Source: Antedon mediterranea
Taxonomy: Eukaryota > Echinodermata > Crinoidea > Comatulida > Antedonidae
NCBI RefSeq assembly: GCF_964355755.1
Contig: NC_092671.1
Coordinates: 8,381,001 to 8,445,000, forward strand
Length of the DNA stretch: 64,000 nucleotides
Direction of reading: 5' to 3'
Shown: positions 13,901 through 59,204 of the stretch, in pieces
How positions within the stretch are numbered: the first letter of the stretch is position 1
How the letters are laid out: every line of letters starts with the position of its first letter
Notes under the pieces: generated by a model
Told to the model about the DNA's origin: nothing
The model's input: only the letters and a program-made list of their open reading frames with translations
Database searches by the model: none
Program-made: the position numbers and the translations under genes

Positions 13901-16900
13901 CACCTTAAAGTGACTTTATTTAAATGTCAAATATTACTGCAAATAATAGATTTGTAATTATTATTATTATATTGGTTTATTATACAACAATTTATTATAG
14001 TAAATAAGAATGATTTAAAGATAGTTCCACTAAATATGATGAAATGAAATTGTAACAGCTGGAAAATACACATGGTCAACAAATGTTGTTATAAAATACA
14101 CATGGTCAACAAATGTTGTTATAAAATACACATGGTCAACAAATGTTGTTATAAAATACACATGGTCAACAAATGTTGTTATAAAATACACATGGTCAAC
14201 AAATGTTATTATAAAATACACATGGTCAACAAATGTTGTTATAAAATACACATGGTCAACAAATGTTGTTATAAAATACACATGGTCAACAAATGTTGTT
14301 ATAAAATACACATGGTCAACAAATGTTGTTATAAAATACACATGGTCAACAAATGTTGTTATAAAATACACATGGTTAACAAATGTTGTTATAAAATACA
14401 CATGGTCAACAAATGTTGTTATAAAATACACATGGTTAACAAATGTTGTTATAAAATACACATGGTCAACAAATGTTGTTATAAAATACACATAGTCAAC
14501 AAATGTTGTTATAAAATACACATGGTCAACAAATGTTGTTATAAAATACACATGGTCAACAAATGTTGTTATAAAATACACATGGTCAACAAATGTTGTT
14601 ATAAAATTTCTTCAAAAAGAATAGAATACAGTTTGTGTAAAGCTCTGTTTACACTATCAAAATAGAAATAAAAAGTGTTCCCAAATTAGGTAGTGATTAA
14701 CATCATCATGTCCATATATATAGGCACATTTTAATAGTATAGACAGAGCTTTAATAACAAAGTAGTTGGGAGTTCATATCATCATTGATGGCTCTTGGAT
14801 CTTCCTAGGACCTACTATTTATCTATCTTTTTTGTGTTTTGTATTGTTTTTTTCTGATAATATGTTATATATATATCACTTGCACTGATGAAGGGCTAGT
14901 GTTGCCCGAAAGCTCTGCTAACTTTTCTGGCTGTTTACTGTATCGTTTAGATTTAGCCTTTCGCTTTTTTTTTTTGTATCTCCATTGAGATCCAGCCACT
15001 GATACCCACAGCATTGTCATTTTTTTAGTAATTTGCCTTTGGATTTATATACATATATATAATATATACATATTGTTACTTTCTAATAATAATAAACAAT
15101 ATTTAATTTTTTTATTTTAGCTAAACCCATGTGGTCAGAAATCAATCAATGAGTCAATGATGTACATTGATAGTCCAGTTGAGAAATGCCAACATATTCT
15201 GGGACTTATCCAGTCACTAATTAGTTTGTTACGACAGAAGATTCATGATCCGTCTTCCAAAGGTAGCATTCAAATATAGTAGGACCTCTATTTATCCTTT
15301 GGAATCCAACAAAATATCCTCATATTAGAGGTGTCCCGTGAATAGAGGAATTCAACAAAGCAGGGTTGAGTTAATAGGAAATCTATCAAAACCCGTAAAA
15401 AAGCTTAACATGCAATTAGTACCTTTAATCTTTGAAGTTGTAGAAAATAACAATAATATGAAACCAACCAATCAAATTGCAAGGATACATTGATCAATTT
15501 TTATTTAGTATTTATTTTTTACAACCAAATTTATATATTTCATCTATATGTAGATGTAGTTTTATATCACAATGAAACGTTGGAGTTAATGCTACGACGA
15601 TGGGCAAAACTTGAAAAAGATTTTTTCATGCAGAAAAACAGTCATTTTGACATCACAAAAATCCCAGACATTTACGACTGTGTCAAGTACGACATGTTGC
15701 ACAACAGGGCCGTGATTGACTTTGAAGAGCTCTGGGATCTGTACGCATGTGCACAGGCAATGGCTGATGTTATTATACCTCAGGTAATAATGGAATAGTC
15801 CCAAATTTCTATGTCCTATGTAATTGTCATGACCATTTATCATCAGCATTATATCTTATTTAATTTAAGGTGAGGATGAAGAGATACATATAGTTAGTGT
15901 AGCTGTAGCTTGGTGGTTAACATGCTTGGCTTCCAATCCCAGGGTTTAGTGTTCAATCCGACAAAGTGCCAGGGTTGTAACTTGTGATGCTTTCAACTCT
16001 ATTCCCTAAGCCTTAAACGAGACTTAGTTTATAAGCACAATAAATTATAAAATAGTTTATCCATCCTGTAATTGGCAAATTGCTCGATGTCGATGTGTAT
16101 GAAATAAAAAAAAAAGAATAAAAATTAAGACCAACAGTAATACTGCCAAAAACTACTATTTCATAATTAAGTGTTAATGCAAAGAAACCATTTGAAAATC
16201 TTTTAATTTGTTATATTTTTTAAACATTAAGGAATATGGAATTTCAGCCAGAGATAAACTGGATATCGGGACAGGTATCTGCACGCCACTCCTGCAGAAG
16301 ATTAAAGGTGACCTGATGCGAAACATTAAAGATGAGGAGTTCACGTCTCGGTTAAATCCGAGATACACACGTGATGTCATGACACCTGACCGTCATGTGC
16401 GATCGCGACTGTATTTTACGAGTGAGAGTCATATACATTCTTTGCTTTCTTGTATAAGATATGGTGGCTTATGTGATGTAAGTCTTGGTTGATACAATTT
16501 TCATTTTATTCAATTAAATTTTTTATAAGATCTTGAACAATATAATTTCCAATTTTAAATACTTGTTAATCTTATCCTGTCAATGTTTTATTTCATTAAG
16601 TTTTATTAATAAATAATTAATATTATTATTTCTTTTAATTTTATAGGAAACAAGTGACCCGCAATGGAAGCGTGCCATGGAATACTTAAGTGCGGTGCGA
16701 GAACTCAACTACATGTCACAGATTGTTATTATGTTGTATGAAGATCCCAAGAAAGACCCCACATCAGAAGATAAATTCCATGTAGAGCTGCATTTCAGCC
16801 CAGGGGCCCGAGGCCTTGAGGATAACTTTGATGTGCCTGAAAGCTGTGGTTATAGGCCTAGCTATTCAAGGGGCAAGGTAATTATTATTACTACAGTTGA

Positions 16901-19878
16901 ACCTGTAGAAGAGGACACCTTCAGGACCCACTAAAGTGCTCCTTAATTGAGGTGTCTCCTGAAATGGGCTTGGTGTTACAACATATATTGTTCGTTTCAT
17001 AGAAAAGTGTCCCTTTAATGATGGCGTTTACTGAATAAGGCTTGGCTATTATAGTGTTACAACATGTAACATATGTTGTTCGTTTCATAAGAAATGTCCC
17101 TTTAATAGGGGTGTTTACTGATTAAGGCTTGGCTATTATAGTGTTACAACATGTAACATATGTTGTTCGTTTCATAAAGAAATGTCCCTTTAATAGGGGT
17201 TTTTACTGAATAAGGGTTGGCTATTATAGTGTTACAACATGTAACATATGTTGTTCGTTTCATAAGAAATGTCCCTTTAATAGGGGTGTTTACTGAATAA
17301 GGCTTGGCTATTATAGTGTTACAACATGTAACATATGTTGTTCGTTTCATAAGAAATGTCCCTTTAATAGGGGTGTTTACTGAATAAGGGTTGGCTATTA
17401 TAGTGTTACAACATGTAACATATGTTGTTCGTTTCATAAGAAATGTCCTTTTAATAGGGGGGTTTACTGAATAAGGGTTGGCTATTATAGTGTTACAACA
17501 TGTAACATATGTTGTTCGTTTCATAAGAAATGTCCCTTTAATAGGGGTGTTTACTGAATAAGGGCTTGACTATTATAGTGTTACAACATGTAACATATGT
17601 TGTTCGTTTCATAAGGAATGTCCCTTTAATAGGGTGTTTACTGAATAGGGCTTGGCTATTATAGTGGTACAACGTGTAACATATGTTGTTCGTTTCATAA
17701 GAAATGTCCTTTTAATAGGGGTGTTTACTGAATAAGGGTTTGCTATTATATAGTGTTACAACATGTAACATATGTTGTTCGTTTCATAAGAAATGTCCCT
17801 TTAATAGGGGTGTTTACTGAATAAGGGCTTGACTATTATAGTGTTACAACATGTAACATATGTTGTTCGTTTCATAAGGAATGTCCCTTTAATAGGGTGT
17901 TTACTGAATAAGGGCGTCCCAAAGGATGAGTTCTACTGTATATTTATTTATATATATATATTATTTAAATAGGTTGAATTAGTAAATTTGGTGACCATTT
18001 AGGAGCCACAAATATTATATTTAAATCAAACAAATATCATAATACTGTTAAAAACATTGGATATTCACAGGCAAATGTACCAGATGTTGAAGTTGATTTA
18101 ATTGATGACCTTGTCAGTGCAGCAGAAGATGTCTTTTGCATGAGCCCAGTGGAAGAGGAGCCACAAGTAGGCTTCTCTCCTCCGGGCAACTACTGCAATA
18201 CTAACAAGAGTTACCCAGAGGTTTCAGCATCAACCCGTGAAAGAAAAGCTTCGGATAACACACCCCCGAGTAGGAACGAAGGAACGCCACCAAGATTTTT
18301 CAGTCGTGATGTTATTGATGATAAGCATCTTGTAATAGGTTCGTTCATCTAAATATTCTTCACATTCAACTAATACATTTATTATTTGTATATTATATAA
18401 CACGTAAATTAATTCCGGTCATTTGATTGGACAGTTGTGGGTCACATAGCATGCAATATTACACACTATTGAGTACTCGTTCAATAGTTCTTTTTAAAAA
18501 AGCATCTTCCAATAGGTTCGTTTGTCTAAATATTCTCCACATTAAACAAATACATTCATTATTTATATATTAAAACACAAATGAATTTTGTTTAAATCTT
18601 ATTGAATTATTTCATATAGAAGCAACGGATTAATTGAATAAAAGTTTACTTTATAGAACCATATCATATAAAACAAATAATAAATGTTTCGTCTTCTTTG
18701 AATATTCTAAAAATAAATAATATTCATTATCTGTATATTAAAATGGAGCATACAAATCCAACCTAATTTATCTATTAAAATTAAACAAAAGAAAGCTTTG
18801 AGGTTACTGTTAATGTCAACTATTTTATAGTTTTTTATTGACATTATTTATCTAATTTATTCAGGTCCACAGACAAGTTTGTTCAGTAAGGGTCTACTAA
18901 ATGTACGGAGTGAACCTGATCTGCCAAGCTACGGCCATCAAAATAATAGAGCATACAAGAGAAGACTGACAGACTTTAGTATTCTGCCAGGTAAGATGTT
19001 GTTTAGAACAGCAGCAGAATATTAACAAAATTAACATAAAACTGAGACCAATTGCTGAGGGTGTGGACCTTTCTAGAACCCTGCGGTTGTATTCACCAAT
19101 CCCACTTAAGTGAGATATTTCCCTTAAATATTAAATATTTCACTTAACTTAATACATTTTTATATATTTCCCTTAAATTGTATTCACTTAGAAAGGAGAT
19201 TTTTTTTATTTTAAGGGTAAGTGTTTCCTTAGCCTAAGTGTGAATGGTGAATATGGCCACTGGTTACAGGCCTGTACTTTATCTCTTTAAGACATACAGT
19301 ACATTTTTATTTACTTCTGGTCCCTTGTACCTCCACCTCCTTTCAACTAATCCTATTACAAGTTTATAGTTTACAATCTTTTTCCGTTTCCAGGTATTGA
19401 TAATGGTTCATCAATGCCATCTGTACGTCCACTAGAAACACTGCACAATTCACTGTCATTGAAACAAGTTGATTACTTCCTGGAGAAAGTAACAAGCCTA
19501 AACTCATGTCGCACCCAGCTAGAAACGCCACCATCATGTCCATACAAACTAAACACTTTTACTCCAAAGCGGGTTCTGCCGACTACGTTAGTGTACAAAG
19601 ACGGAGAGGCCTCGCTCCTAAGCCGATCATCATCCAATCCCTCGTCTAATGTCTCCAGTGCTTTGCCGTCACCAACTGAAAACCGAGTCTTTGATTTCAT
19701 GGACTTGGGATCAGACTTAATGATGAGTAGTCTGGATGGTATTTGCAGTTTAGGATCGAGCACATCTGAACAAACACTGGCTAAAAACACATTGAGTAAT
19801 ATATCATTGCTTTCACCTCCAAAAAACCTTATAGAAACATGTCCTAGAGACAGTTATCCAGGATCAGATGAAAATTGA
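1083..19878 (+). CDS. PPIP5K: Inositol hexakisphosphate / diphosphoinositol-pentakisphosphate kinase (PPIP5K, VIP1 family)
   Basis: Bifunctional cytosolic enzyme. The N-terminal ATP-grasp kinase phosphorylates InsP6 and 5-InsP7 to make 1-InsP7 and InsP8. The C-terminal histidine-phosphatase-like domain removes the 1-phosphate (family knowledge). Twenty coding exons: 1083-1166, 1382-1695, 2155-2398, 2987-3088, 4096-4257, 6055-6176, 6906-7007, 10212-10298, 10389-10669, 12878-13000, 13138-13259, 13414-13526, 13780-13846, 15121-15262, 15554-15783, 16232-16477, 16647-16877, 18071-18338, 18865-18990, 19394-19878. They total 3651 bp (1216 aa) with all junctions in frame. Kinase residues about 38-375 include [15 protein letters not shown], the [12 protein letters not shown] stretch and metal-site [10 protein letters not shown]. 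The phosphatase-like domain opens with [10 protein letters not shown] at 388-397 and includes SESHIHSLL. Residues about 925-1216 are Ser-rich and poorly conserved. Length matches animal PPIP5Ks (about 1240-1430 aa). The start ATG lies after a 3' splice site, so the 5' UTR is split. AATAAA at 20602 and 20690 would end the transcript. Confidence 0.96.
4299..4426. mobile_element. MITE copy 1 (TA-flanked, AAGCTCTGTC termini)
   Basis: Short palindromic element in PPIP5K intron 5. The left end AAGCTCTGTCTACACTATCA is matched by an inverted, slightly diverged right end, and the interior has the paired motifs GTGACAAAAAAATGT and ACACTTTTTTGTC. The TA at its edges is a likely target duplication. It belongs to a seven-copy family in this window. 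Confidence 0.75.
4441..4670. repeat. Interspersed repeat with GCTGCGACA inverted ends, copy 1
   Basis: Contains CTTGCCAAGATAGGAATTC, CTTATGTCTGGCTGCGACA, TGTCGCAGCCACAG and GATTGCCTTG. The same blocks occur in the opposite orientation at 25405-25610, upstream of PAAT. The internal GCTGCGACA / TGTCGCAGC pair makes it partly self-complementary. The family is unidentified. Confidence 0.6.
4735..5498. repeat. Interspersed element with GACC/GACA tetranucleotide core and terminal hairpin
   Basis: Two related tail segments, each with GCATAGTGATACC, a tract of CCGACAGACAGAC/CCGACCGACC units and TAGTGAACTATA, end near 4820 and 5498. The complete tail closes with the hairpin AGTCGC-TTCCAC-GCGACT followed by AAAA. 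The body between them (4880-5390) is rich in GCGCGC and TACGCATGCG runs. Inverted relatives occur at 39532-39660 and 59205-59330. A microsatellite core followed by a short 3' hairpin resembles Helentron-derived nonautonomous elements (inference). Confidence 0.6.
7151..7350 (+). mobile_element. tRNA-derived SINE, family A copy 1
   Basis: The head carries pol III box A-like TGGCCGAGCGGTTAA and box B-like GGGTTCGAGGCTC, as in a Leu/Ser-type tRNA. The tRNA-unrelated body follows, with GTCTAGTGTACACA, GCACTTTAAAG, GAGTAGGGGGTTACCCTGGTG and an end near 7350. The same layout recurs at 10800-11085, and the 3' portion at 41215-41420. Confidence 0.75.
7419..8285 (+). other. Unexplained protein-like reading frames inside PPIP5K intron 7
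   Basis: The 7419-7604 frame (61 aa) has protein-like composition near its end ([20 protein letters not shown]). The sequence after the 62-bp array reads open from about 8154 to a TGA near 8270 ([20 protein letters not shown] and onward, acidic and Ser-rich) and is closely followed by AATAAA. No homologue is recognised and no splice phase joins it to PPIP5K exon 7. It may be a nested-gene remnant, a retrocopy tail or chance. Confidence 0.25.
7748..8181. repeat. 62-bp tandem array, 7 copies
   Basis: Units start with GGAACC at 7748, 7810, 7872, 7934, 7996, 8058 and 8120 and are almost identical (CTTTG/CTGTG variants). Each contains TTGCCCCCACAGAGTATAAA, which looks like a 3' splice acceptor followed by exon-like sequence. 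The array lies in PPIP5K intron 7. The period is not a multiple of 3, so frames shift between copies. Confidence 0.95.
9671..9900 (+). mobile_element. tRNA-derived SINE, family B copy 1
   Basis: The head GTGGCTTGGTGGTTATGATGC (box A-like) and GGGTTCTGGGTTGAAGTCCC (box B-like) are followed by CACTCCCTAAG and TGGATGGATCACCCTCATTA, with an A-rich end. A second copy is at 15892-16120. It lies in PPIP5K intron 7. Confidence 0.65.
10800..11085 (+). mobile_element. tRNA-derived SINE, family A copy 2
   Basis: ATGGCCGAGCAGTTAAGGCA and GGGTTCGAGGTTGAA mark boxes A and B. The body shares GTCCAGTGTACACAG, GCACTTTAAAGAACCCACA and GAGTAGGGGGTTACGCCGGTG with copy 1. The element lies in PPIP5K intron 9. Confidence 0.75.
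11913..11929. repeat. (CA)n microsatellite
   Basis: A short run of CA dinucleotides in PPIP5K intron 9. Confidence 0.85.
12544..12608. repeat. Inverted repeat, TTGA/TCAA-rich cruciform
   Basis: The left arm (TACTGTACAGTATTGATTGA and on) is nearly the reverse complement of the right arm (ending TCTACAGTACAGTA), around a GGTTGGGT centre. Arms are about 28 bases. It lies in PPIP5K intron 9. Confidence 0.85.
13568..13713. mobile_element. MITE copy 2
   Basis: TA plus AAGCTCTGTCTACACTATCA at the left and GTGTAGACAGAGCTATA at the right are inverted ends. The interior has the family motif ACTACCATATTTGGGCACAT and TTGTCACATAAAGTTTGAT. It lies in PPIP5K intron 12. Confidence 0.8.
14062..14606. repeat. 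30-bp tandem array, 18 near-identical copies
   Basis: The unit is ATACACATGGTCAACAAATG plus TTGTTATAAA, repeated every 30 bases from 14071 to 14581. Only a few substitutions occur (GGTTAAC twice, TAGTCAAC once, TTATT once). Because the period is divisible by three and the unit lacks stops in two frames, both strands read open for over 180 codons, but this is not a gene. It lies in PPIP5K intron 13, with a MITE immediately downstream. Confidence 0.97.
14638..14754. mobile_element. MITE copy 3
   Basis: Inverted ends TAAAGCTCTGTTTACACTAT and ATAGACAGAGCTTTA give the clearest TA duplication in the family. It lies 32 bases after the 30-bp array. Confidence 0.8.
15892..16120 (+). mobile_element. 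tRNA-derived SINE, family B copy 2
   Basis: GTAGCTTGGTGGTTAACATGC and GGGTTTAGTGTTCAATCCG are the box A and box B regions. ATTCCCTAAGCC and an A-rich tail near 16110 match copy 1. It lies in PPIP5K intron 15. Confidence 0.6.
16972..17915. repeat. About 87-bp tandem array, roughly 11 copies
   Basis: Units contain GTGTTACAACATGTAACATA, TGTTGTTCGTTTCATAAG, AATGTCCCTTTAATAGGGG and TGTTTACTGAATAAGG. Each copy has an internal hairpin (ACAACAT / ATGTTGT). Period varies from 86 to 89 because of small indels. The array lies in PPIP5K intron 17. Related single sequences (TGAATAGGGG words) occur near 15275-15370, 59095-59180 and 62740-62840. Confidence 0.92.
18499..18581 (+). repeat. Diverged duplicate of the PPIP5K exon 18 3' end and its donor
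   Basis: Matches 18319-18402 with scattered changes: AAGCATCTTCCAATAGGTTC against AAGCATCTTGTAATAGGTTC, then a shared CTAAATATTCT and ACATTATTTAT-like stretch. It carries a decoy copy of the exon 18 splice donor 180 bases downstream of the real one. A weaker third echo is near 18690. Confidence 0.7.
19078..19262. repeat. Foldback element, copy 1
   Basis: Starts with TATTCACCAATCCCACTTAAG and ends with the inverted CTAAGTGTGAATGGTGAATA, with TTCCCTTAAAT blocks inside. A partial relative with ATGTCCTTAAATATTTAAG and CACTTAAGTATGGTTAATGA lies at 22555-22655. Confidence 0.6.
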
Positions 19879-21883: not shown

Positions 21884-24800
21884 TCAAGTATTATCCTTGT
21901 TTGATGAATTCTTTTCTTTTAATAAATCTATACATTTATTTTCTAATATTTCAAATTTTTTATCCATTTGAAGACGATAGTCATCCATCTCTTGAAATTT
22001 TGCTTGTAATCTTTCCTCCATTTCCTGCTGCATTTGAAGAACCCTGGCTTCTAAGTTTACTCCGCAGGAACATGTTACAGATTCTGATGCAGATCTAGAA
22101 CAAAATAAAATATATTATATACTACATCATATATTCCAGGCCTCTGATTGGTCAAAAAGTTATTATCATTTATCTCAAGAAGAAAAGGACTAGAAAGTAA
22201 TCTAGTTTTGGAATTGAGTACAGTCAACATTTCAACGGTCCAAATTCTTTGCTATTCTAAAAAGCCATATTTACTTAATCATCATTATGGTACAGGTAAA
22301 CTTGAAATTTAAATTATATTATTATGGCCGACGTCTGTCGCGAACAACAATGTAAATAAGTCTTACATTCATCTGAATGATGGATGAAACTAAGCGAGGA
22401 CTGTTTAAAGCACCTTTGGCTGGTCCTATCATTGACCAAGGGCTTCTCTCGTCCAGTGCCAACCTTGACCAGAAGAAAAGCATAAGGCAGTACAGCTGAG
22501 GAAGATACTAGATGCCATGAGAGTCAGCAGTGCTGATTTCAAATGCCTAATGGGATCCCATCTCTAAATATTCTCCATTTAAAAGAAAATGTCCTTAAAT
22601 ATTTAAGTGAAATACTTATCTCACTTAAGTATGGTTAATGAATATGGTCACAGGCATGTTGAGCCAGGGCAGAATGAACATTTTGGTAGAGTTGACTGTA
22701 CTATAATTTCCTGCAAAAAACTTACACTGCACAGTTATTTAATCCCTCTTTAGAGAACTCATCAGTTGAACATTTCTCCTCTTGTGATTCTACCAGATTC
22801 CACTTATCATTCCTACATTCTATACTTAATACAGTATCACTTGTTGTATTAGATTTATCCCTATTTGATTTTTTACACAGTAATTGTTTAGCTAAACATT
22901 CATTTGTCTCTGTTTGCCTCGAGTCCGATTGTTGTGACATTGTTCTTTGCGTAAACAGCTGAAGCATCATGGGAAGGAGAGGGTTTGTTTGTGATTGAGG
23001 GGTAGATGAAGGAGCACTGGCTGGAATGGACGATATTAGTTGGTGCAACATTGCTTGGCCCTAAAAAAAAAAATGAGCATAAAAATTTAATAGATATTTA
23101 ATTTAACAAGTTCATTTTTATGGATTGCTCTCAGAAAGTCTACTTGTAGGAATGTAAAATAGTTCATGTTATTTTGTGTATAATTGTAGCATAGACCATC
23201 AGGAGTCAGTCAGCTTAGCAGCAAAATAATAGTAAAACTGTTTATCTAACATGTACCATTATGGGAGGTGGTTTGCATTACGGCGACAAGAGACCTTGTA
23301 CAAATATAATTTTATTTTTGTGTTTTTAAATAAGTATATTTTTTTATAAACCTGTAATTGGTGGCTTTCTGTACTGTTGGTTGTAAGAATAAAAAATAAA
23401 AAAGGTTATCTTTTCATTATTTTCATGATTATTAAAACTCTGTCTACAAAGTTAGTTTGACAAAAAACTATGATGCACCCAAATATGGTAGTGATACACC
23501 CAAATACGGTAGTGATATGTCATCATGTCCATATATGGGCACATCACATTTTTTTGTCACATAAAGTTTTATAGTGTAGACAGAGCTCTAGACTTACATC
23601 AGTTTCAAATTTGTTATTAAGCAGCATACGATCTACTTTTTGCATGTTTACAAGCTTACTGCTGTCAGGGACGTCATTCTTCTCTTCCAATGTCAGCCAA
23701 ATACCAAACAGATCCAACTTCTGTTTTTCTTGCAATGAAACAAACTATATATTTTAAAAATTAAGAAAAACTTGAGAGCTATGACTCTAATACAGTGGTT
23801 GATCCAGAATGGTTAAATTTGGTGCTTTTTATTTCAGTCTGATGGTATGTAAACAACACAACTGCACATAATGCACTTGTCAATTATATGATCCACTATC
23901 AATCCCCGGGAGAGGTGTGTCAATTACAAATAATCATTGATTCAGGGGTGCGTCAAAAAACCTAAACGGTATGCCACATCAATGAACATTGGTGTGTCAA
24001 TGTCCGTCACTTTACCACCCGCCATATCTATACCGTGAACAACATGGTAATTGTTCTTCAAAATATGTACGCCAATGGTATTCAAGTATGACACCTCTCA
24101 TGGGGGTCGTATAGTGGGTTATATAAATGACAGGTGTTTAACACAAACATTCAAGATCTACATTATTGATAAAGAAAACTACATAAGATGCATAAGACAT
24201 TATCATGCATGGTTTTATAATGCTACCCTTTATTATCTGTAATAGTATAGAAATTGACCTTTCTACAACCACTACTAATACTATAAAAATATTATTGGGA
24301 AGTTGGTTATTTCAATATTCAAATTTTTGTACCTTGATTGACATTGTATCCAATGGTCTTCCACATTCGAACGTGTGCCAGTAAACACTGCTTCCATTGG
24401 ATGACTTCATTTTCCCTTTGACAGTTTCTAAATAAGAATCCTTGCCCTCGTACACTTCCATGTGACGAGCGCTGCACACGATACGCAGCTCAGTCAATGC
24501 CATGCTACTGTGGGCAGTTAACATTATTAGACAGCGTTCTGATCCTGAAGCATTGTCTGGACGAAGCACTGTAGATTGGAGACAGGTCTCGCCATCTTCT
24601 GCTAAAAGTCTGGATATTTAAGGGAAAACAAATAAAACCAGATATCAATTTAATTATTTAAAATGGTACTGATGTACTGTATAGGCCTAGTATGTATGAG
24701 TGGCAGAGTGGTGAAATTAAAATCAGTTTTTAAGTATTTTATATGAAGGCCCACTGACCCAGGCCCACTATATACGATTTTGATTATATCATTGTTAATG

Positions 24801-25610: not shown

Positions 25611-25841
25611 TACTGTACCGTAGCCTAGGCCTATTTCATACACATCCAATTCGTTTAAAATTTGATCTATCCGATTTTCTCAACATGTTCTGTTCATAAC
25701 TTAGGCTATCCCCCCGCTCATGAACATATACCAGCTTTTTCCTCATTAATATTCGTTTATTCATTTAAATATTCATCGTAATAAAAGGCAGATCGTACAG
25801 TAGACATAATGATACAATAATTTATAATATTATTATAAATC

Positions 25842-25847
25842 TTTATT
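25842..25847 (-). terminator. Poly(A) signal of the secreted antistasin/collagen/TIL gene
   Basis: AATAAA on the minus strand, about 160 bases after the stop codon at 26006-26008, with an AT-rich stretch beyond it. Confidence 0.65.
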
Positions 25848-26005: not shown

Positions 26006-29000
26006 TTAACCAGAGCCTTCTTCTCGTTCTGCATCTTCTTCACACTCAAAGTACTGGGAAGAAAGACATTCACATCGTTGACCTCGTAATGTGAATCTAT
26101 CACCGATCTGAAGAATAGAACAATTACATTTTGATATAAACTGAGCCAGGACTGTTTTAAAGCACCTTTGTTAGCTTGCTACCATTGATCAAGTGATTCT
26201 TTCGCCCAATGCCCACCTTAAGCAGAGGACAGGATACGTCTGAGGCAGATGGACACTAAATGCATCTAGTATGTGTTATATGAACTATAGTAACATTCGT
26301 AACGATTCTGTGGCAATTATGGTATTGATGACGTTGACAATCGACCCATTTCGGGTAATTCCAAATACAAATAATATTTAAAAACATCAATTTCTGTTGG
26401 CGTTATCGACTACTTCATTTAGTATGTCGTATTTTAGAGTATGTTACACCTTTTATTCTGAACTCCTGATCGTCAAGAAGTAAAGATAAAATACCTGAAA
26501 GTATTTCTGTATTTCGTCAACGTAGCAGCCACACCTCTGCTCGGGAACACAGTGTCCATCGTTATCTAACATCAATCCCTCTTCGCATTTACAATGTGCG
26601 CACATTTTGTTACAAATAATGTGATTTGTGTCGATACCCTGAACGAAGTCCACACAGTTTGGCTGGCAAGCACGTGCACACTTGGCTTCGATTTGGTTAA
26701 AAGGACAATCACGACCTAAAAAATGTGATCAAATGTATAACTATGTGTATGTATACTTGTATTTGCTCTCATGATTGGTTTTAGAGGTAGGCCTACATTC
26801 CGCATTCGCATCCGCACTCCATTATGAGGCATAGGGCTTAAAATGTTAACTCGTCCTAAATATCATCGATTTTTTTGTAATATTATACAAAATTAAATGT
26901 TCTATAGGCTTACGTTTGCAAGTCTTGAAACTAGATACAGTATATACTCATATTAATGATCGAAAGACAAAAATCATCTAGAAAAGGAGACATTATTGAG
27001 AAATGAGAAGATGGTGATTTAGGGAAATTCAAATTTAGTTTACCAAATGATGTATGTAGCAATAATAATGCTAACTTTGACCGATGTGCAATACTTCATG
27101 CTATATTTGTGTATTTTTATCAGGAAAAAGATTTTTTTTTTCTATGCGCTTCTAAAAGTGACAATAACATATCTTGTCTGTTTGGATACCCTTTAACAAA
27201 CACTAATCAAACTAAACCTGCTGGGCCTGGACCTGATGGACCTTCTTGTTTTGGGCCTGGTGGTAGTCCTTGAGTTGGTGGAGGTCCTTGAGTTGGTGGA
27301 GGTCCTTGAGTAGGTGATGGTCTTTGTGCTGCTTGACTTTGTTGTACTCCTGGTGTACCTTTTGGTCCTGATGGAAATTGTGGTCCTGATGGAACTTGAG
27401 GGCCCGGAGGCGGTGCTGTTGGTCCTGTTGGACCTTTTGGTCCTGTTGGACCTTTTGATCCTGTTGGACCTTCTGGTCCTGTTGGACCTTCTGGTCCTGC
27501 TGGACCTGATGGGCCTGATGGACCAGATGGGCCTGATGGACCAGATGGGCCTGATGGGCCTGGTGGTCCTGGTGGTCCTGGTGGTCCTGGTGGTCCTGGT
27601 GATCCTGGTGGTCCTGGTGGTGAAGGGCCATCGTCAGGACATGAACAACGCAGGCATCCAAATTCGTCGGGTGTTGGCGGAGCAAGTGGCTTTTTACAAC
27701 CACAAGGTGGACATTCACGAGGCGGACCGTCGTCACGAGGAGGGCCATCGTCACGAGGAGGGCCGTCGTCACGAGGAGGGCCGTCGTCACGAGGAGGGCC
27801 GTCGTCACGAGGCGGGCCGTCGTCCCGAGGGGGGCCGCCATCACGAGAAGGGCCTATAATTGAATTAGAATATTTTAAAGTTAAAACAACATCTACATCC
27901 TTTGAAATTAGTTTATGTTATGTATATGCCTTATTTAGATGTTTTCTTTTAATATGAATAATTCACTGTCTGGTATCGATGTGTCAATTTCCCAAGCATT
28001 ACATTTATATTCCTCTAGTAGGAGACAACTTTATTTATAGAAATGAAAAATATTATCTACTGTACATCAGCACCCACTACAAAAAAATACATACCTAATA
28101 TAAAATCTAGTATATCTAGTATGGGACAGCGGCATGTCATGCAATTATTTTCATCTAATCTTGGAAATATATTCTTGGGTCTTTTACATCGACATGGAGC
28201 ACAGCATACTTCTTTCTCTGCTTGGGAATAATAGTTAATTTAATACACTTTTTTGTTGGCAACAATTTCATAAACATATTCATTTGTGTACTGTATTTAT
28301 CATTACCTTTAACGTTTAACGAATGAAAAGTACATCAAGCTCTTAGTACAGAACAGTAATGTACTCACTTTTGTTCAGACCATCTCCTCTAGGGCCTTTA
28401 GTGTGTGAGCGATGTGCGTCTCTGGTCTCCCTGGGTGGTAATGGTTCTTCCACGGGACAGGTGCATCGAATGCACCCATTTTCATTTACGAATGGAGGTC
28501 CAAAAGGAATTTCACACTCACATTCCGGACATTCAGGACCTGTATCACAAAGGGAAAAAATTGTGTTTTTTATTTATTTTCATATAGTATGCTAAGTGAT
28601 ACGAAAAAGCATGACAGCGTAAAACAAGATTCATTGTAATAAAAAGCAAAATGGGAATCTAAAGTAAAGTAAACTTTTGATTTGCGACGACCGAAGACCA
28701 TCCTATATCAAGTTTGATGTGTGTTCAGTCGTCTTCAGGACCTAAAAACTAACAAATCTGTGTCGAGATAGTGGGGAGCGAAGACATACGCCTCGATTCC
28801 GCATAATCTGTGTCGAGATAGTGGGGAGCGAAGACATACGCCTCGATTCCGCATAATCTGTGTCGAGATAGTGGGGAGCGAAGACATACGCCTCGATTCC
28901 GCATAATCTGTGTCGAGATAGTGGGGAGCGAAGACATACGCCTCGATTCCGCATAATCTGTGTCGAGATAGTGGGGAGCGAAGACATACGCCTCGATTCC

Positions 29001-32000
29001 GCATGTGCTGCGCACAATGAATTAAAATAACGTAGTTTGTCCCCTCAATATTGTATCACCCTATTCTCAATCGGTGATACAAAATTACGTTCTATAAAAC
29101 ACAAGAGCTTATGGAATTTGCTGCAAAGGTTTACCGGAAAGGTGTGTAATATTGAAGCTGTTGCTCTGTTTTATACCAGACTTAATAATCCATAATAATT
29201 TTATATAATTAAGTTACTCTACATATTAGTTGGATCAAAGTTTAAATGAGTAGCAAGACAGGATATTGTGCCGGCACTCCTTTCAAATTGGATCATATTT
29301 TAATCGCTTAATAAAGAAAGGTCCTCGGTATGGGTGTCAACAGGATTTAGGAGGATTTCGCGAATAAATATTATTTTGAGAGATTTTAAGTAAACTCTAT
29401 AGTAACATAGTACAGACACTATTTATAACTATACACAACGTAGCAAAATATAGTAAGTCAATTATTTTATGGTTTATCAAAAAGAAAAAAATACAACCAT
29501 ATCAACAAAATATTTTACAGAAATGTTTTCCCAAACAGTTTCAAAAGTTTCTTGAACTTAAATACAGTTGGAAATTTGCCTGACAAGCTTAGAAATCGGG
29601 AGATGTAGTAAAATTAAAGTATATGGTTGAGAATTTGACATGCAAAATAATAAGTGAGAATAATTTCACCCAATCAATTCATCCATTTTATTTTCTGCAC
29701 ATGACCTACCCGCTGGTGGTTCTGGTGGTGGTGGTGGCCCACAGTCACACACTTGGCATCCGTTTTCATCAGTAGCAATAGGGGCATCTGGCATTGGATC
29801 ACACAAGCAGGGTTTGCAAGCTGTAACAGAAAGAAGGGGAATGACATATTTACACAAACGTCTTATACATTGCACTAGTAGAAACACTATCAGAAAAACG
29901 AAAAAGTCAAAACCATTACACCTTTTGGGCCTGTATAAAGTATTACGGGTAGTATGGTAATTACGGAAATACTAACAATATTAACGTAGGCAAAAACTAA
30001 TCTAACCCTCTGCAACCTGATTTTAAAATTGGTATAAAAATACCTTTTCCTAAAAAAAAAAAAAATATTTGTCCGAACATTCGAATGGCTAAAGGGGAGT
30101 TTTGGTCAGGCGGTTTAGGACGATAGTCATATCAACTTTCAGGTTATTGCTATTGCAATATAGATTACACTTATTATAATAAACTTTTTTTTTATAAATG
30201 ATAATCAACATGATAATATATGTATATAAATTATAATTCAATAAAGTGGTACATACGGACTGGGGGTTTGGGTGGACATGCGCACTTCAGACATCTATTC
30301 TCATCGATAAGTTGAAGTGGAAAAGGATTTTTACACGGACATGGTTTACAGCATTTACCTGAAAGAAAACAAATAAAAATAATGCAACGTCAAGTTTGCT
30401 TAGGTGATACAATATTATAGCAACTTTCTACTTTGTTTTCGATACACACGTACATTCAATAAAGAATGAACCTTTGTGCAGTTTCTTCTGTAGATACGCT
30501 TGTATAAAATATATATATAATATAATCTAAAAAGTAGAATTTATAAAAACTATATAATATTTATGAATCAGTTGATGAATAAAATATATGAATGAAGGAG
30601 TAAAAAGGTCCAAAACAGGCCTACCTTTTGGACCAATTGGTCCTTCTTCTGGTGGTGGACATTTACATTCTGGACATCCGTTTGAATCAATGGGAGCGTC
30701 AGACTTAACTCCACATGGACATTTGGGACAACCACCTATAAAATAAATGTAAATAAAAATGTATTTTATTAAGCGCTATTTACATAGAACTTACAAAATG
30801 GTACAAACAACATCAAAAATTGTATCGAATTTTCTATATTATGTATAAAATGTTATTTCAGTTTTTGTTTTTAACTACATGGATTCGTTTTTAAGGTTAT
30901 TGCTATATGTACAGTACTTTTGTATTTTATGAAAACGAATACCGAAATTTTGAAATTAATGAATGAAAATAAAACTTTTACAAAATGTTTTACCTGGTGG
31001 TGGAGGGGGTGGAAGCTTACATACGCAAGTTTTACACCCATTCTCATCCGGTTGGGTGCCAAGATCACAGCGGATTAAACACGTAATTGGTGGACATGTT
31101 GGTTCTGAAACAATAACTATCAGTAAAACGAATTAATGTTACCTATGTATCAGGATTGTTTAGAGAAAGTTTTTTTTCCGGTCATCGAAATATAGGAGCT
31201 CCAAAGAAAGATTCAAAGACAACCTAAAGAAAAACCTAAATTCTGGTCACATTAACCATAACCAATGGTCCACTCAACCCACAAACCGTGTGGCTTGGCG
31301 TCACACCACCCACCAAGCGGTCAACTCCTTCGAAAACACACGCAGGATAGCCCTTGAAGAAAAAAGAAAAAATCGAAAAAATCGCAATGCTAAACCACAA
31401 CCACAAGAGCTGCATCCGACATTCCTCTGCAGCCGCTGTGGACCGACATGCCTTTCTTGCATCGGACTTGTCAGCCACAAACGAGTCTGTGACAGACGTG
31501 GACAAACTCCTTTATAACAATCTTCGTTCGCGAAGCAAAGCCAAGAAGAAGAGACGAAATTTAGAAATTAATGAATGAATGAAAATAAAACTTTTACAAA
31601 ACTTAAATGTTTTACCTGGTGGCGGAGGAGGTGGAAGGTAACATACGCAAGTTTCACACCCATTCTCATCCGTTATGGTGCCAAAATCACAGCGGATTAA
31701 ACACGTAATTGGTGGACATGTTGGTTCTGAAATAATAACTATCAGTAAAACGAATTAATGTTACCTATGTATCAGGATTGTTTAGAGAAAGTTTTTTTCT
31801 CAAATTAAATTTCAACCAGCACCATAAAATATATTAAGATTTCCGGCGGTTTGTTTGGTTAGCAAAACAAACAAACGATGAAAACAAAATTATTTTGTCT
31901 CCATTTTTAGTTCAGTTACAACATTCATGTGTACAAATATGTAAACATGTTTCATCATTGTTTTAAATATTTTATATTGTTTTATTACAAACAATATACA

Positions 32001-32365
32001 ACAATATCATGGACAATGAACAAAAATCCTCTACGCCTAGGTAATCCGTGAAGGTTTAAGAATAACAACTTGTTTCCAATCTGTCGTCTTTGCCCAGTTT
32101 CTCCAAAACCATAGTCATAATTGGTATCTCCAAGTATCAAACATAAACCTTACATGATATATGATATTGGGCAAATATTGTAGTATGTGGAGATACAGCA
32201 CTGAGAATCGGGTTTACCAAGTGAAAATGAAGAAATCGCAAAATAAAGTAAACGATTAAAAAGCAAACAATGTTTCAAAACCAATGTTTTCCTACCTTGA
32301 GCGTTGACAATCAGTGATGCCAACACCAATACACCAGAAAACACCAAAACAATCGACTTCACCAT
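26006..32365 (-). CDS. Secreted modular protein: antistasin-like repeats, GPPRDD run, collagen-like stretch, TIL domain
   Basis: Eleven exons: 32296-32365, 31616-31726, 30994-31104, 30625-30735, 30257-30358, 29710-29820, 28369-28539, 28095-28217, 27218-27853, 26495-26715, 26006-26107. They total 1869 bp (622 aa). Residues 1-22 are a signal peptide ([19 protein letters not shown]). Seven exons, mostly 111 bp and all phase 1-1, each encode one cysteine module. The first two match antistasin (C-x4-C-x3-C-x8-DENGC-x2-C-x-C), and later ones follow C-x2-C-x-C...C-x2-C-x-C with Pro-rich linkers. Exon 9 encodes six perfect GPPRDD units (about 310-345), an eighth cysteine module (351-375), about 22 Gly-X-Y triplets (384-449), then PPPTQG repeats. 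Exon 10 is a ten-cysteine trypsin-inhibitor-like (TIL) domain ending CGC, followed by a TILa-like tail. Antistasin and TIL folds often inhibit proteases, so an extracellular inhibitor, matrix or adhesive protein is likely (inference). The exact architecture is unfamiliar to me. Confidence 0.85.
26138..26280. repeat. Interspersed repeat, copy 2 (pair with 22366-22525)
   Basis: AGGACTGTTTTAAAGCACCT, ATTGATCAAGTGATTCTTTCG, CCCAATGCCCACCTTAAG. It is in the same orientation as the copy in PAAT intron 4 and lies in the last intron of the secreted-protein gene. Confidence 0.55.
28755..29004. repeat. 50-bp tandem array, 5 essentially identical copies
   Basis: The unit begins AATCTGTGTCGAGATAGTGG and continues GGAGCGAAGACATACGCCTC, GATTCCGCAT. 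Copies start at 28755, 28805, 28855, 28905 and 28955. It is more GC-rich than its surroundings and lies in the intron between exons 6 and 7 of the secreted-protein gene. All three minus frames read open because the unit lacks stops; this is not coding. Confidence 0.95.
30943..31800 (-). repeat. Tandem duplication of an antistasin exon with its flanking introns
   Basis: The block around exon 3 (about 30943-31178) and that around exon 2 (about 31556-31798) are nearly identical: ATGAATGAAAATAAAACTTT on one side, the 111-bp exon, then AACTATCAGTAAAACGAATT and TATCAGGATTGTTTAGAGAA on the other. The spacing is about 613 bases. The encoded modules differ at only a handful of residues (LGTQP against FGTIT). 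Confidence 0.9.
31185..31565 (+). mobile_element. 5'-truncated non-LTR retrotransposon (ORF2 C-terminus)
   Basis: Opposite in strand to the host gene. It reads APKK, then (after an apparent one-base frame break) [39 protein letters not shown], and a terminal CX2CX12HX3C knuckle ([20 protein letters not shown]), stopping at 31517. A basic FKDNLK block, a tryptophan-rich segment and a Cys/His knuckle are typical of the C-terminus of RTE/CR1/Jockey-type ORF2. The 3' end merges into ATGAATGAATGA. It lies in intron 2 of the secreted-protein gene. It is a fossil fragment, not active. Confidence 0.75.
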
Positions 32366-32433: not shown

Positions 32434-32441
32434 CTTATATA
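32434..32441 (-). promoter_or_regulatory. TATA box of the secreted antistasin/collagen/TIL gene
   Basis: On the minus strand CTATATAAGAGC lies about 70 bases before the ATG, which predicts a start site near 32405-32410 and a 5' UTR of about 40 bases. A strong TATA box suits a strongly expressed, cell-type-specific secretory gene (inference). Confidence 0.75.
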
Positions 32442-37004: not shown

Positions 37005-40000
37005 TTAGACGGAGTATCTATTTGAACGAATCAATTTGGTTATTGCTTTTCGCCATTGCGTTGTAATTTTTGTCTTCTTGCCAGTTTCTATAATCACGTG
37101 TTTTTGACGCCAAGTTCGGTATAAATTTCGAAATACTTCAGCAACCGCTTGTATTTGTCGTCCATCCTTTGCTGATATTTCATAAAATGGTATCCCCATT
37201 TGTGACGCAAGAAGTTCGCCCTCTACCTCACGTATAGTCCGTTCATTATCCTGCATATCAACTTTATTTCCCACAAGTACTCCAGGCACGTGATCTGATC
37301 CTGTTGCCTCACTCACAACCTGACGAATATTCACAATCTCAGCGAAGCTTTGCGGATCGGTTATCGAGTAAACAAATACGAAAGCATCACCCCAGTACGA
37401 ATATGAGTTCGGTAGCCCTCTTGAATTCTGGAAATAAAATTGGAAACTCAAAAACTTCGGAAATAACGTCATGCATTATAGGGGTGTCACGAAACCTAAG
37501 ACCACGAAAGCGAAGACCCCCTAAGACCTAAGATCACGAAAGCTAAGACCTAAGACCTAAGATTACAAATATTTATCTTTCGCACCTGCCTTGTATTTTA
37601 ACTCCCAACATTTATTCTGAATGAATACCACACCTTAGAATTGGCACTTTCATGAAAAAGAATCACATAAAAAGTAACAAATACATTTTTAAATTGATGA
37701 TTTTACAGACGTTTTTCTCGAACACAAAATGACTAGCCTACAGTACAGTAGGCCTACCCCATGGGCCATGTTCAATGTTTTTGTTTCTATGGAACGTCAA
37801 AAGAGCAAAAATTATATAGAGGGCTGAAAACTCTGTGGAGTCCATCTACAGTGTGGATGGAACAATGTAAAATTAAAATTGTAATGATAATAGTATAATC
37901 ATGCAAGTACGAAGAAATAAATACTGGCAAATAAATTTTAATTTAAAAATCATGATAAGTTTTTTTTCTGTTTTTATACTTGTACTATTATTGTTGCTCT
38001 TTTGGCGCTCCATAGAAACAAAAACATTGAGCATGGGGAGCTCGAGGAGTTACATTACAGTATACAAAGAAACACATCTGTAAAATCATCAATTTAAAGG
38101 ATTTATTTATTTGTTATTATGTGTTTCTCCTTCTGAAAGTACTTATAAGTCCTAATTTTAAAGTGTGGTGTTCAGGATAAAGTTAGTCAACAAATTTGGA
38201 GTCAAAATACAAGAAAGGCAGGTGCGTAAGAAAAACATCCTCTGAACCAACACAATGGAGTAAATATATACCATCAAACAACCCGTCAAGTTTGTTTGTT
38301 GTAAAGAAAAAATATACATTTACTCAACGGGCGAAAATAATGTGAGTTTATCTATGTTTTGCGGTAGTATTAAATTATATTTATGGTAATAAATGAAACC
38401 TACTGTGTTTAAAATTATGTATGGATAAACAAGTATTGTTTTTAAGCTGTAGTATATCTTAGTATTTGTAATCTTAGGTGTTGGGTCTTAGCTTTCGTGA
38501 TCTTAGGTCTTAGGGGGTCTGAGCTTTCGTGGTCTTAGGTTTCGTGACACCCTGCATTATAGTTATGTACATTAGGCCTATGCCACTGACAGTTCAAGGG
38601 TCACTGACAGTTCAAGGGTCACTGGCAGTTTAAGGGTTACTCTGATGATTTACATGAATGATTATTACATGATTACATGATGAATGATTAAAACTTTTTA
38701 AACGAAAAATTTTGATCATTCATGATTAAAATTTTTATTTAGTATGACGACAATTTGTTTAGTTCAAATAGGTGTTTCGTCTTACCTGAACATGTCCAGC
38801 CGTGTCTAATATCTCCATGGTAACATCTTCGTTATCAATTGTTGTACTGTATGTACATAATGTTTCTAAAAAAGTAATATGTACGCAATAAACACAAATA
38901 AAGTAATTATGCAAAGATGTAAATAATAATATTCAAATTAACGTCAACCGTTACAATTTAAAAATTGTTTTCTTCGTGTCAGGGCGGTAGACGAAGAACG
39001 AACGTTAAAATCGACAAAATACAGTCCGAGAGTGCATGGATTTTTTGGTATAAATTAGCTTCTCCTCCGTCTTCTATACGGTCCAAAAGCGAAAACTTGC
39101 GATGTACAAATTTGTTAACGTAATAAGTTAATGGTGATGATTATTGATCTTGCAATTTAAGTAATAATTTAATTACGGCAAGCAACGTAATTACGTCAAG
39201 CATTATTATGTTTGTATGCTTGTTTCCGTATATAAAATTGTATAATTTTCACTTACCTAAGGTAGGATCGTATTCGCCAATAAATCTCTTTGTAGTGTAC
39301 CGCACCATTAGTGCTGTAAGAAAGCAGAATTATATCATTAAGGTAATTTGAGCGTCCAATATGTCTTATTATTGTTAACCAATATCGTTATGAATAACAT
39401 AGTAGGCCTGGAATTTGGTAAAGTATTTTTAAAATGAGCTGCTGACGACGAAACAGGAAAGACTATAATGCTCTATAAACAAACGAATATTAAGTTGTTT
39501 ATTATTATAGTTATATTTTATTAAATGTGACGTTTTTAGTCACGTGCAACGCGACTCTCAGCTCACTATGTCGGTCGGTTGGTTGGTCGGTCGGTTGGTC
39601 GGTCGGTCAGTCGGTAAACACTAACTCAAATTTGAGCACGTGACTGCAGCCATATATATGACCTTGTTAATATTAATATATAACATTGAAAAAATCATCA
39701 GTATATATAAAGTCTAAACTATCAAACTACTTTGGCACAAAAGTGATGTGCCCAAATATGGTAGTGATATGCCTACATATGGTAGTAATATGACATCATC
39801 ATGTCCAAATATTTGCACATCACATTTTTTTTGTCACATAAAGTTTGATAGTGTAGACAAAGCTTAAGATCAAACAATTATGTGAAGAAATATTGAGAAA
39901 GAAATAATGCTACAGATATTTTATAAAGTTAAGATAAGGGTGGTGAATGTGCCAAAAAAGCATAACCGGTAAAGTTGTGAAAAATATGCGAAACTGAGAA

Positions 40001-55938: not shown

Positions 55939-56035
55939 TTATGAGAGGCTGGATTTCAGCACGATCTTAAAAGTATTTCTTTGCGATACTACACACTGAA
56001 GTAACTAGATTAGTTTATTGACTACTACAAACAAC

Positions 56036-56575
56036 ATGGCATCGGCAAGCCAACTACCGCATAGGAATCAGAACCATTTAAATTCATGCCGTTTCTACGA
56101 TTCCCCTCAATATAATGGATTTTCAAATTATGATCAGTTTTACCAAGACAGCGACCATTATTCGTCATACTCGAAGTATCCAAAAAGTCCGGACGAACTG
56201 TACGACGGCGACGAAAACTGTGAAAATGATGAAGAATGTTGGCGACGAGAAGAGAACCCAGATCATGTGTTGAATCCTGGTCATGCAAGGCATGGTAATC
56301 GCAGCTGTCTACTTTGGGCTTGTAAAGCCTGTAAAAAACAATCACATAGTTTGGACAAACGCCGCGCCGCAACCATGCGAGAACGCAGGCGGTTAGGTAA
56401 GGTGAACTCGGCATTTGAAACTTTAAAACGACACACCTGTCCGAACCCAGACCAGCGTATTCCAAAAGTTATGATATTAAGACACGCAATTCAATACATT
56501 GACAGACTGCAAATGATTCTCCATCAAAGTGAACAATCAGATACGGATAGTGCAAGGGATTCACCATTGAACAGG
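56036..56575 (+). CDS. MyoD-like: MyoD-family myogenic bHLH transcription factor, first coding exon
   Basis: A 180-residue first coding exon that ends at the donor AGG|GTAAGT in phase 0. The protein is partial here. Residues 1-75 are Tyr/Ser/Asp/Glu-rich, as in MyoD activation regions. Residues 77-99 ([24 protein letters not shown]) carry the family His/Cys-rich stretch and the CLLWACKAC motif. The basic region [12 protein letters not shown] (108-119) keeps the myogenic Ala112-Thr113 pair and Lys122. The helix-loop-helix runs to about residue 162. Differences from vertebrate MyoD include PKVMIL for PKVEIL and RLGKVNSAF for RLSKVNEAF. The Ser/Asp-rich end ([13 protein letters not shown]) is where vertebrate MyoD exon 1 also ends. 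The start is ATG at 56036; the in-frame TTG 18 bases upstream is not credible. Expected role: muscle-lineage control in the nucleus. Confidence 0.92.
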
Positions 56576-59204
56576 GTAAGTTTATTAAGTTAACATTATA
56601 AAAATGACCGAAATAAAGGAAATGAATGAATGATATCCTAAGGTTGGAAATAGTAAACTAACTTGCATGCTTAATTATTAAATGTCTGCAATATGAAGTT
56701 TCTGTTGCAGTATTATATGATTGTTATGAAAACTAGTTAAAAATAAATAAAATGAAAGTAAATACGGTAATATGTGATGTTTAGTCGTATAATAGTTAAT
56801 ACGATCTTTCAAAGCAACTTACGTTACAAATTAAATGGAAAATTTACTGGTGAAGTTAATAAACAAAATAGATAAATCTGTACTGAAACATCTGCACTTA
56901 ATAATATCATTATTACATTAAAGAATATCGTAATATTTTCTTCCAACTTCATCGTAAAAAAAAATCGAGTTTTCATCAATGGGTTCAAGGCCCAGCTCGT
57001 CAGTGTGAGGTGGAAACGGTCACTTACGTGCCTATAATTTAAAGTATTAGTGATTTTAATGAGATACTTTTATAAATGAAAATTCCACATGGGAATGGGA
57101 AGTAAACAATAAGATGACTTATAACGAACTTTCATTTTCTGCAAAGCTTCTTGTGTTTATTAATTAGGAAGACAAAAAACAATAATTGATCTTTTTGTTT
57201 CATTTACATATTTTACTGAATCGGTTTTAAAAAACTTCGCAACGATTTTTCATTTATGTATACGAATGATGAATAAATTACTGTATACATAATATTACAT
57301 AAAGTATATACATACAGTACAACGGGTATACGGTAATATGCACCTTTTTACAAAATACATTTAAGTGAAACTTTACATTTTAAACCATACATTTATGTGT
57401 AAGTTTGTATTATTTTATTTGCTATATTATTTCACAATAAACTAAAGTTTAAATCGCTCATGAATTCCTTACGGATTAGTGTAATAATATCGTTATTACA
57501 TAGCCTATAGAGGCCCATAATGTAACAAAAATACTCAATAAAAAGGTTTATATAACTCCAGAAAATCGTTTCGATTTTAGGTTAACATGCGATCTAGTTT
57601 CTCTTTATCAGAGGCTATTCTATTTAATGTTGAAAGCAACAACTTTTTGAAGATTTAAAAATGTGATGTTTGTGAATAAAACAGTTTCTTGATTAAGGCT
57701 TGAGTTTACCAGCAGTGATGGTGTTCACACGCAAACGCGACGTATTATTATTTTCGACCTTGATGTCTCCCACTAATGGGGTATCGTTTCACTTCCTTCC
57801 GGTTTTCTCAAGGTGGGTATACTTTTGACAGATCTATCTATGTACCCGGCCTTCGATGTGTACCTATGTAACTGGTATAATGCTATAGTAACTGGCTATT
57901 ATGTAAAATTACAATTTAATTCAAGATGTGCCATTTGTCCTCCTTGAAGTAATCAATGTAATAAACTATAACATTGGATTTTTAAATTAACTTGCTCTCT
58001 CTACCAGGAAATGCTGAGGCAGGCTTCTATTGGTCGTTTTTACTTATTTTTTGTAGCTAAGGCTACAGAGCTCCGAGTTAATAGTAAAGTAAAATGAGAT
58101 AATCATGCTTGATTACAATTATTCTTTTCTCATTTTAGTGTGTTCGTTAGGGCCATCTGGACAAAGTGGGATTTAATTGAATGGAGACCTATTAAAAAAT
58201 CATGTCTCCATTCTCGTTATAAGCTGCCGCCCATTCCTTAGTCATTTAAATTGGTTGATTTGTAAAGCAGATTCAGATTCTTTTCTTCTTGTACTAAATA
58301 TTAGTCTATCAATATTAAATTAAGTTTTTCTTCTTTTTTTCTAAGTTTCTAACAGGCTTACCCAAGGTCTTCAGGCAGAGGATAGTAATACAGTAATTCT
58401 CCTTAACATGTTACAACAAGTGCTCTTATTAGAACTTCTACAAAATTAGGATACTGAGTTTACTAGATAACAATTATTCATCCTTTACAATTATTTCACA
58501 TGCTAACAGTACAGCGACATGTTTCTGACTTAAGTCAAAAAATGTATCAAATGTATTACCCCGTATATTTTGTAATCATCTATGATTCAACAGATTGCAT
58601 CAGTACTAACCCTGTAAAATGTAAACGTATACAAGTAATAGAAATTAGAAGAATATGTGAGGCACATCCACAAAGATAAAAAAATGCTATAGGCCTTGTG
58701 CGATAAACCCAATTTATGTTATGGATGTGTTGATGCTACAGTTTAGGTTCTGAAAAGTTACGTGTTTCAAACGCTGTTTTAATTATTTGAAACGATTTAC
58801 ACTATTTCTTTATTTATTTGGAGTTCTTTAACACAGGTGCTATGGTTTTTATAGATGTAAAACCCCTACCCGTCTGCGAATGACCTTCTTGGTTTGAACA
58901 ACGTCTTTAACTCCCGACAGCGCGGTTAAGCGTCCGAACCGCAACGGCTGTGGTTAAACGTTCTCATTGCTGAATGATATAAACAACCTTTACCCTGATT
59001 TCAAGTTATAAATTTCAATAGGCTTTATACCATTCCCCTGGAATTCCCAATAAGAGCATACCTCCAGGACCCAACAAAGGTCCCTTAAGAAATTTCCTCT
59101 GAATAGGGGTTGGCAAATGTGTTAAAACATATTATTTCCCCTTGGTTTCACGGGAAAGTGTTCGTTTCACGGGAAAGGAGTGTTTTATACTGTATTTTGT
59201 TTTT

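Follow-up and report, generated by a model that had tools for sequence, protein, structure and literature searches.

The window analysed here is a stretch of 64,000 nucleotides from the crinoid Antedon mediterranea (contig NC_092671.1, positions 8,381,001 to 8,445,000), and positions within it count from its first letter. Its minus strand carries, from 32365 to 26006, an 11-exon gene model for a chimeric protein in which a putative signal peptide is followed by eight small cysteine modules, a short collagen stretch and a C-terminal TIL domain with a tail. The exon borders were of the GT/AG type and the frame was open throughout. The model encodes 622 amino acids (623 codons with the stop), of which 139 are proline and 64 are cysteine. 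Each of the first nine exons ends in phase 1, and exon 10 in phase 0. An earlier interpretation made without database searches (the sequence-only reading) had proposed the 11 exons, the 622 residues, a signal peptide, modules in phase 1-1 exons, six GPPRDD units, about 22 Gly-X-Y triplets, a TIL domain and a TATA box, and all of these were recovered. The features of the gene are as follows.

32435-32441, minus strand: TATA box (TATATAA), about 70 bases upstream of the start codon
32296-32365, minus strand: exon 1, signal peptide of 23 residues, a hydrophobic leader judged by eye
31616-31726, minus strand: exon 2, canonical antistasin module (CX4CX3C) with the loop Leu-Ile-Arg, then polyproline; Pfam 31.1 bits, hirustasin E 5.7e-4
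30994-31104, minus strand: exon 3, canonical antistasin module, tandem copy of exon 2; Pfam 28.2 bits
30625-30735, minus strand: exon 4, variant module (CX2CXC) without the loop; no Pfam match
30257-30358, minus strand: exon 5, variant module with an extra cysteine (CC) and a weak donor (TCC/gtatgt); no Pfam match
29710-29820, minus strand: exon 6, variant module, then polyproline; Pfam antistasin 17.8 bits, under the cut-off
28369-28539, minus strand: exon 7, variant module with a longer linker that contains RGD (residue 256); no antistasin match
28095-28217, minus strand: exon 8, variant module with an extra cysteine (CC); no Pfam match
27218-27853, minus strand: exon 9, GPPRDD repeats, variant module 8, 22 Gly-X-Y triplets and a Pro/Gln-rich tail
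27729-27836, minus strand: six perfect GPPRDD hexapeptides in exon 9 (18-base tandem repeat)
27639-27713, minus strand: variant module 8 in exon 9 (CX2CXC...CX2CXC); no Pfam match
27417-27614, minus strand: 22 uninterrupted Gly-X-Y triplets in exon 9, residues 384-449
26495-26715, minus strand: exon 10, TIL domain and start of an E-like module of the von Willebrand factor (VWF) type
26006-26107, minus strand: exon 11, rest of the E-like module, acidic tail and stop
25842-25847, minus strand: polyadenylation signal AATAAA, 159 bases from the stop codon

A second AATAAA follows exon 11 at 25761.

Seven of the cysteine modules occupy one phase 1-1 exon each (exons 2 to 8) and the eighth lies inside the collagen exon, exon 9. 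Each has six cysteines, save those of exons 5 and 8, which have seven. The window contained eight occurrences of the module pattern, which was composed after the modules had been seen, where 100 first-order Markov simulations averaged 0.01 (maximum 1), and the array is therefore not a product of chance. The modules were of two kinds. A reactive-site loop between the second and third cysteines was present in those of exons 2 and 3 and missing from the other six, which are spaced CX2CXC-X(12-14)-CX2CXC and have one residue at the position of the loop. Scored singly against the Pfam antistasin profile (PF02822, cut-off 21.2 bits), two of the eight lay above the cut-off (exons 2 and 3), one below it (exon 6), and five gave no match; for exon 7, Pfam listed two other families, both at the level of chance (E 2.7 and 3.2). 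The whole 622-residue model passed, at 30.7 bits (E 4.4e-7). The description of all eight as antistasin-like thus fits two modules in canonical form, and the remaining six lack the loop.

For comparison, antistasin modules at five other loci of the same genome were collected with a single expression, which missed some. All 33 modules caught in this way had two to four residues at the loop position (two in 3 modules, three in 26 and four in 4). One module that the expression missed, behind a TIL domain at locus L005, had three loop residues when inspected by eye. The exon 2 module aligned with leech inhibitors across the reactive-site loop: with hirustasin (E 5.7e-4), bdellastasin (0.007), guamerin (0.053) and, weakly, antistasin (0.51). 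The leucine of exons 2 and 3 would correspond to the P1 residue of hirustasin, Arg30, and would suit a chymotrypsin- or elastase-like protease. All eight modules share a C-X2-C-X-C end. Because of this common end and, exon 9 apart, the design of one phase 1-1 exon per module, the variant modules are taken as antistasin-derived forms that would have lost the loop.

Exons 2 and 3 belong to a duplication of 244 bases at 91% identity. Between them, 9 of 108 exon bases differ (nonsynonymous divergence, dN, 0.091; synonymous divergence, dS, 0.081), as do 3 of 74 bases of the intron just upstream of the duplicates. Exon and intron did not differ significantly (Fisher p 0.37), and we make no claim of selection. 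The RGD at residue 256, within the GPRGDG of the exon 7 linker, is a possible integrin site and may be a chance occurrence.

The Gly-X-Y run of exon 9 is unbroken and long enough for a triple helix. In a profile scan of the genome this locus matched Pfam collagen (PF01391) at 33.7 bits, over the cut-off of 27.2. When exon 9 was searched against the genome, it matched only itself at full length, and the other 41 matches were partial and reached at most 63% (best 150 of 248 candidates). Its variant module matched itself and exon 7 only (both of two candidates scored, E up to 10), in a search of low sensitivity owing to the short query.

Exons 10 and 11 hold 11 and 3 cysteines, and these 14 would fit ten in a TIL domain plus four in a tail or E module. 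Alone, the two exons matched Pfam TIL (PF01826) at 30.5 bits (E 3.9e-7, cut-off 24.5), and the genome profile scan gave 31.8 bits at this locus, again over the cut-off. TIL was not listed when Pfam scanned the whole model. In the PDB, the TIL domain and tail matched VWF (E 0.002, query residues 3-90), Mucin-5B (0.0056) and, behind these, the chymotrypsin inhibitor 1ccv (0.072). All 14 PDB matches were weak, those to VWF, Mucin-5B and Mucin-2 spanning E 0.002-0.093. The model had no match to Pfam TILa and none to VWD or C8 at E up to 1; exon 11 alone matched only DUF4802, at 17.2 bits (below the cut-off of 27). The TIL domain with its tail appears to resemble, weakly, the TIL-E pair of VWF, and we refer to it as TIL-E. 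A ten-cysteine TIL with a TILa-like tail had been proposed; Pfam bore out the TIL, and the weak VWF match extended to residue 90, with no TILa match. A paralog of TIL-E at C2:7448207-7448428 (our contig C2) matched at 58% over exon 10 and has the same exon phases. As 56 of 106 residues are identical between the two (dN 0.38; dS not computable, as at saturation) and the phases are shared, the TIL-E exons look coding and constrained.

The genome scanned comprised 354 Mb in 18 contigs. It contained at least 125 TIL matches (all 138 candidates scored), 135 antistasin matches (best 150 of 205 candidates), falling by eye into 11 clusters, and 142 collagen matches (best 150 of 502 candidates). Antistasin and TIL also lay on the same strand within a few kilobases at C2:16.00-16.02, C2:7.164-7.168 and C2:7.190-7.195 Mb, and an open frame at locus L005 (6723-7091) reads a TIL domain and an antistasin module together. 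Among the matches listed, with distances computed from hand-picked coordinates, collagen lay near an antistasin cluster only in the window; elsewhere the nearest was at least 0.6 Mb away. Further antistasin-collagen neighbours may exist, since both searches scored part of the candidates. When the antistasin part, the collagen exon and TIL-E were each searched against this genome, no relative with the whole layout occurred among the matches listed, and no protein combining antistasin, collagen and TIL was found among the titles and beginnings of abstracts listed in searches of the open-access literature. The label "unfamiliar" in the sequence-only reading is fair for the combination with collagen; antistasin near TIL recurs in this genome.

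Ranked by E-value, the best matches of the antistasin part fell in an array at C9:25.07 Mb (E down to 2.7e-8, at about 50-62% identity). This poly-antistasin array (C9:25067000-25075999), with 15 modules caught and eight bearing the loop FIY, is a possible source of exons 2 and 3. A region at C3:38.097-38.157 Mb holds about 30 TIL matches, mostly about 1.7 kb apart and often with the same score, which would fit near-identical copies.

Our reading, to which we give a probability of about one half, is that the gene encodes a disulfide-rich protein that is secreted, trimerised by its collagen stretch and structural in role, in extracellular matrix, mucus or an adhesive. The leader, modules, linkers, collagen stretch and TIL-E are given by the sequence; from them we infer trimerisation, cross-linking and site of action. 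Three chains would join through the collagen rod, and each would contribute one arm of eight cysteine modules spaced by polyproline or charged linkers, 24 modules in all. The unpaired cysteines of exons 5 and 8 and the TIL-E end would link these trimers to each other, and the protein would thereby set into a cross-linked layer in mucus, adhesive, cuticle or connective tissue. Modules 1 and 2, with their antistasin loop and leucine at P1, could shield this layer from chymotrypsin- or elastase-like proteases. The other six modules, incapable of loop-type inhibition, would act as stiff cross-linking beads. Protease inhibition would then be at most a side role of modules 1 and 2. Because most modules lack the protease-blocking loop, a role in matrix, mucus or glue seems likelier than enzyme inhibition. 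The secreted modular chimera with a possible collagen trimer, as first proposed, is supported by the sequence. The alternative of an adhesive or mucus protein, offered beside it, was the better half of that proposal and is strengthened.

Several observations weigh against a trimeric, cross-linked matrix protein. The odd cysteines may instead pair within one chain. Pfam collagen reached only 20.0 bits (E 5.7e-4) on the whole model, under its cut-off, and the Pfam scan of the model returned no recognised trimerisation domain. AlphaFold2 folded the exon 9 variant module as a two-stranded hairpin (predicted local distance difference test score, pLDDT, 75.7; predicted template modelling score, pTM, 0.36; six alignment rows), and a Foldseek search with this fold gave no match among solved structures; the predicted fold of the exon 2 module had a pLDDT of 61.2 (two alignment rows). 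With a predicted fold of middling confidence and no solved-structure match, the loss of inhibitory function in the variant modules would have to be argued from cysteine spacing only. Upstream of the TIL-E paralog, about 34 kb scanned by cysteine and collagen content contained no antistasin or collagen exon. The same stretch scanned by Pro/Gly/Ser/Thr content gave no candidate exon, and a crude scan of its L006-L007 part for a signal-peptide exon gave nine rows, none convincing. The lack of an antistasin or collagen exon there suggests that TIL-E can sit on another front part. Lastly, the donor of exon 9 (CAG/gtttag) is weak. It scored -3.2 with an approximate matrix; for the 450 GT dinucleotides in 25.5-33 kb the median was -5.0 and the 75th percentile -2.2.

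The splice from exon 9 to exon 10, a predicted junction, is the weakest link of the gene model, and it leaves room for two genes or several isoforms, with an antistasin-collagen product that ends after exon 9 or in intron 10 and a TIL-E that is optional or belongs elsewhere. Besides the weak donor, this would explain the in-frame stop directly behind it (...GPAGLV*), the AATAAA at 26457 in intron 10, where read-through of exon 10 would stop, and the paralog with no antistasin or collagen exons found upstream. However, the phases of exons 9 and 10 fit, intron 9 has neither AATAAA nor ATTAAA while AATAAA does follow exon 11, and a second phase-1 donor, at 27358 and in frame, offers another way of joining collagen to TIL. 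A free-standing TIL-E gene was sought and set aside, as a crude scan of intron 9, the interval between exons 9 and 10, found no signal-peptide exon with a phase-1 donor; it stays as a rival because of the weak exon 9 donor. We regard a division into two genes or isoforms as distinctly improbable. A shorter isoform is possible, given the weak exon 5 donor and the AATAAA in intron 10.

Two further alternatives concern the function of the product. The gene could encode a trimeric or matrix-bound multi-headed serine protease inhibitor, in which antistasin and TIL domains inhibit and the collagen anchors or multiplies them. Both are inhibitor folds, exon 2 aligns with leech inhibitors across the reactive-site loop, and exon 3 has the same loop. 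An antistasin/WAP-like inhibitor of a sea cucumber is also cited in PMC11310086. The loop is nevertheless missing from six of the eight modules and TIL-E scores best, if weakly, against VWF and mucins, which weakens the multi-inhibitor of the sequence-only reading. The modules here are moreover half-domains with six or seven cysteines, compared with ten in each domain of the leech inhibitors. We hold this function to be unlikely. Another candidate is a metal-binding structural or storage protein, in which the twelve CX2CXC halves would bind metal in the manner of metallothionein. Every variant module has the form CX2CXC-X(12-14)-CX2CXC, and PMC9382459 mentions a mussel byssal protein with antistasin domains that may bind metals, with metallothionein-like motifs. 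Against this, the conserved DENGC-like end points to a fold inherited from antistasin and not to metallothionein. The secreted route, too, favours disulfides, and metal binding appears very improbable.

As a disulfide-rich, collagen-bearing matrix protein, the product finds its nearest analogues in minicollagens and sea star footprint proteins; in the latter, antistasin and TIL-bearing proteins belong to the adhesive. The minicollagens of cnidarian stinging capsules are likewise secreted, with short Gly-X-Y stretches, polyproline and six-cysteine domains of about 20-25 residues, and polymerise through disulfides, as described in PMC4863159. They are defined by 12-16 triplets and CX3CX3CX3CX3CC domains at both collagen ends, and the gene here departs from this, with 22 triplets, the spacing CX2CXC...CX2CXC, eight modules before the collagen and TIL-E behind it; we saw no sign of kinship. 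In sea star footprints, PMC9382459 reports antistasin domains in Sfp8, Sfp3 and Sfp15 and VWD-C8-TIL in Sfp1/2, and suggests that disulfides perhaps give the adhesive stability. Sfp8, Sfp3 and Sfp15 are, like the product here, secreted echinoderm proteins with antistasin, but all have WAP, Sfp8 has FAMeT and Sfp3 has EGF. The word "collagen" does not occur in the main text of PMC9382459, nor "antistasin" in that of the echinoderm matrix review PMC10381214. WAP and antistasin also occur together in a limpet adhesive protein (PMC7333891). A disulfide-rich eggshell protein (PMC3068167) was rejected as an analogue, its reported spacing of C-X4-C-X5-C-X8-C being different.

Among domain families, leech antistasin and hirustasin (PF02822) share the profile and loop with exons 2 and 3 and the C-X2-C-X-C end with all eight modules, seven of which also have the single phase 1-1 exon. 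Unlike them, the gene here has six modules without the C2-X3-C3 loop and carries collagen and TIL-E in addition. VWF and gel-forming mucins have in common with it a TIL domain followed by a tail, which on our division of the cysteines would have four, but in the model no VWD or C8 was found.

Elsewhere in the window, an open frame at 24315-24617 on the minus strand is PAAT-like by Pfam (38.8 bits, cut-off 27) and is the next gene piece behind the gene. An exon of a Ras-family GTPase lies at 37011-37475 on the minus strand, and a MyoD-type myogenic basic helix-loop-helix factor (Pfam Basic and HLH) at 56009-56590, about 24 kb from the gene. Long in-frame tandem repeats at 14033-14662 and 17147-17908 (10-residue units and an 18-residue repeated frame) are perhaps satellites. 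Within the gene, the intron between exons 6 and 7 contains five perfect 50-base tandem copies (28755-29004, 100% match). The intron between exons 2 and 3 contains a plus-strand open frame (31164-31517) with a C-X2-C...H-type ending, which by eye resembles the 3' end of a retroelement and had no Pfam match.

As a modular secreted matrix protein the product is of a kind already known, and its combination of domains is unusual. A more tentative and rather doubtful extension is that it is a deuterostome counterpart of the minicollagens. On this view, duplicated inhibitor modules would have lost their loop and come to serve as disulfide cross-linkers along a short collagen, yielding a self-polymerising matrix or glue with an origin separate from that of cnidarian capsules. 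In a genome with so many antistasin and TIL genes, the gene is otherwise an ordinary assembly of domains. If these readings hold, it would illustrate clearly how inhibitor modules can lose the active loop one exon at a time and find new use as building blocks next to a short collagen; it would parallel the minicollagens by convergence, and its product could be part of the mucus, cuticle, adhesive or connective tissue of echinoderms.

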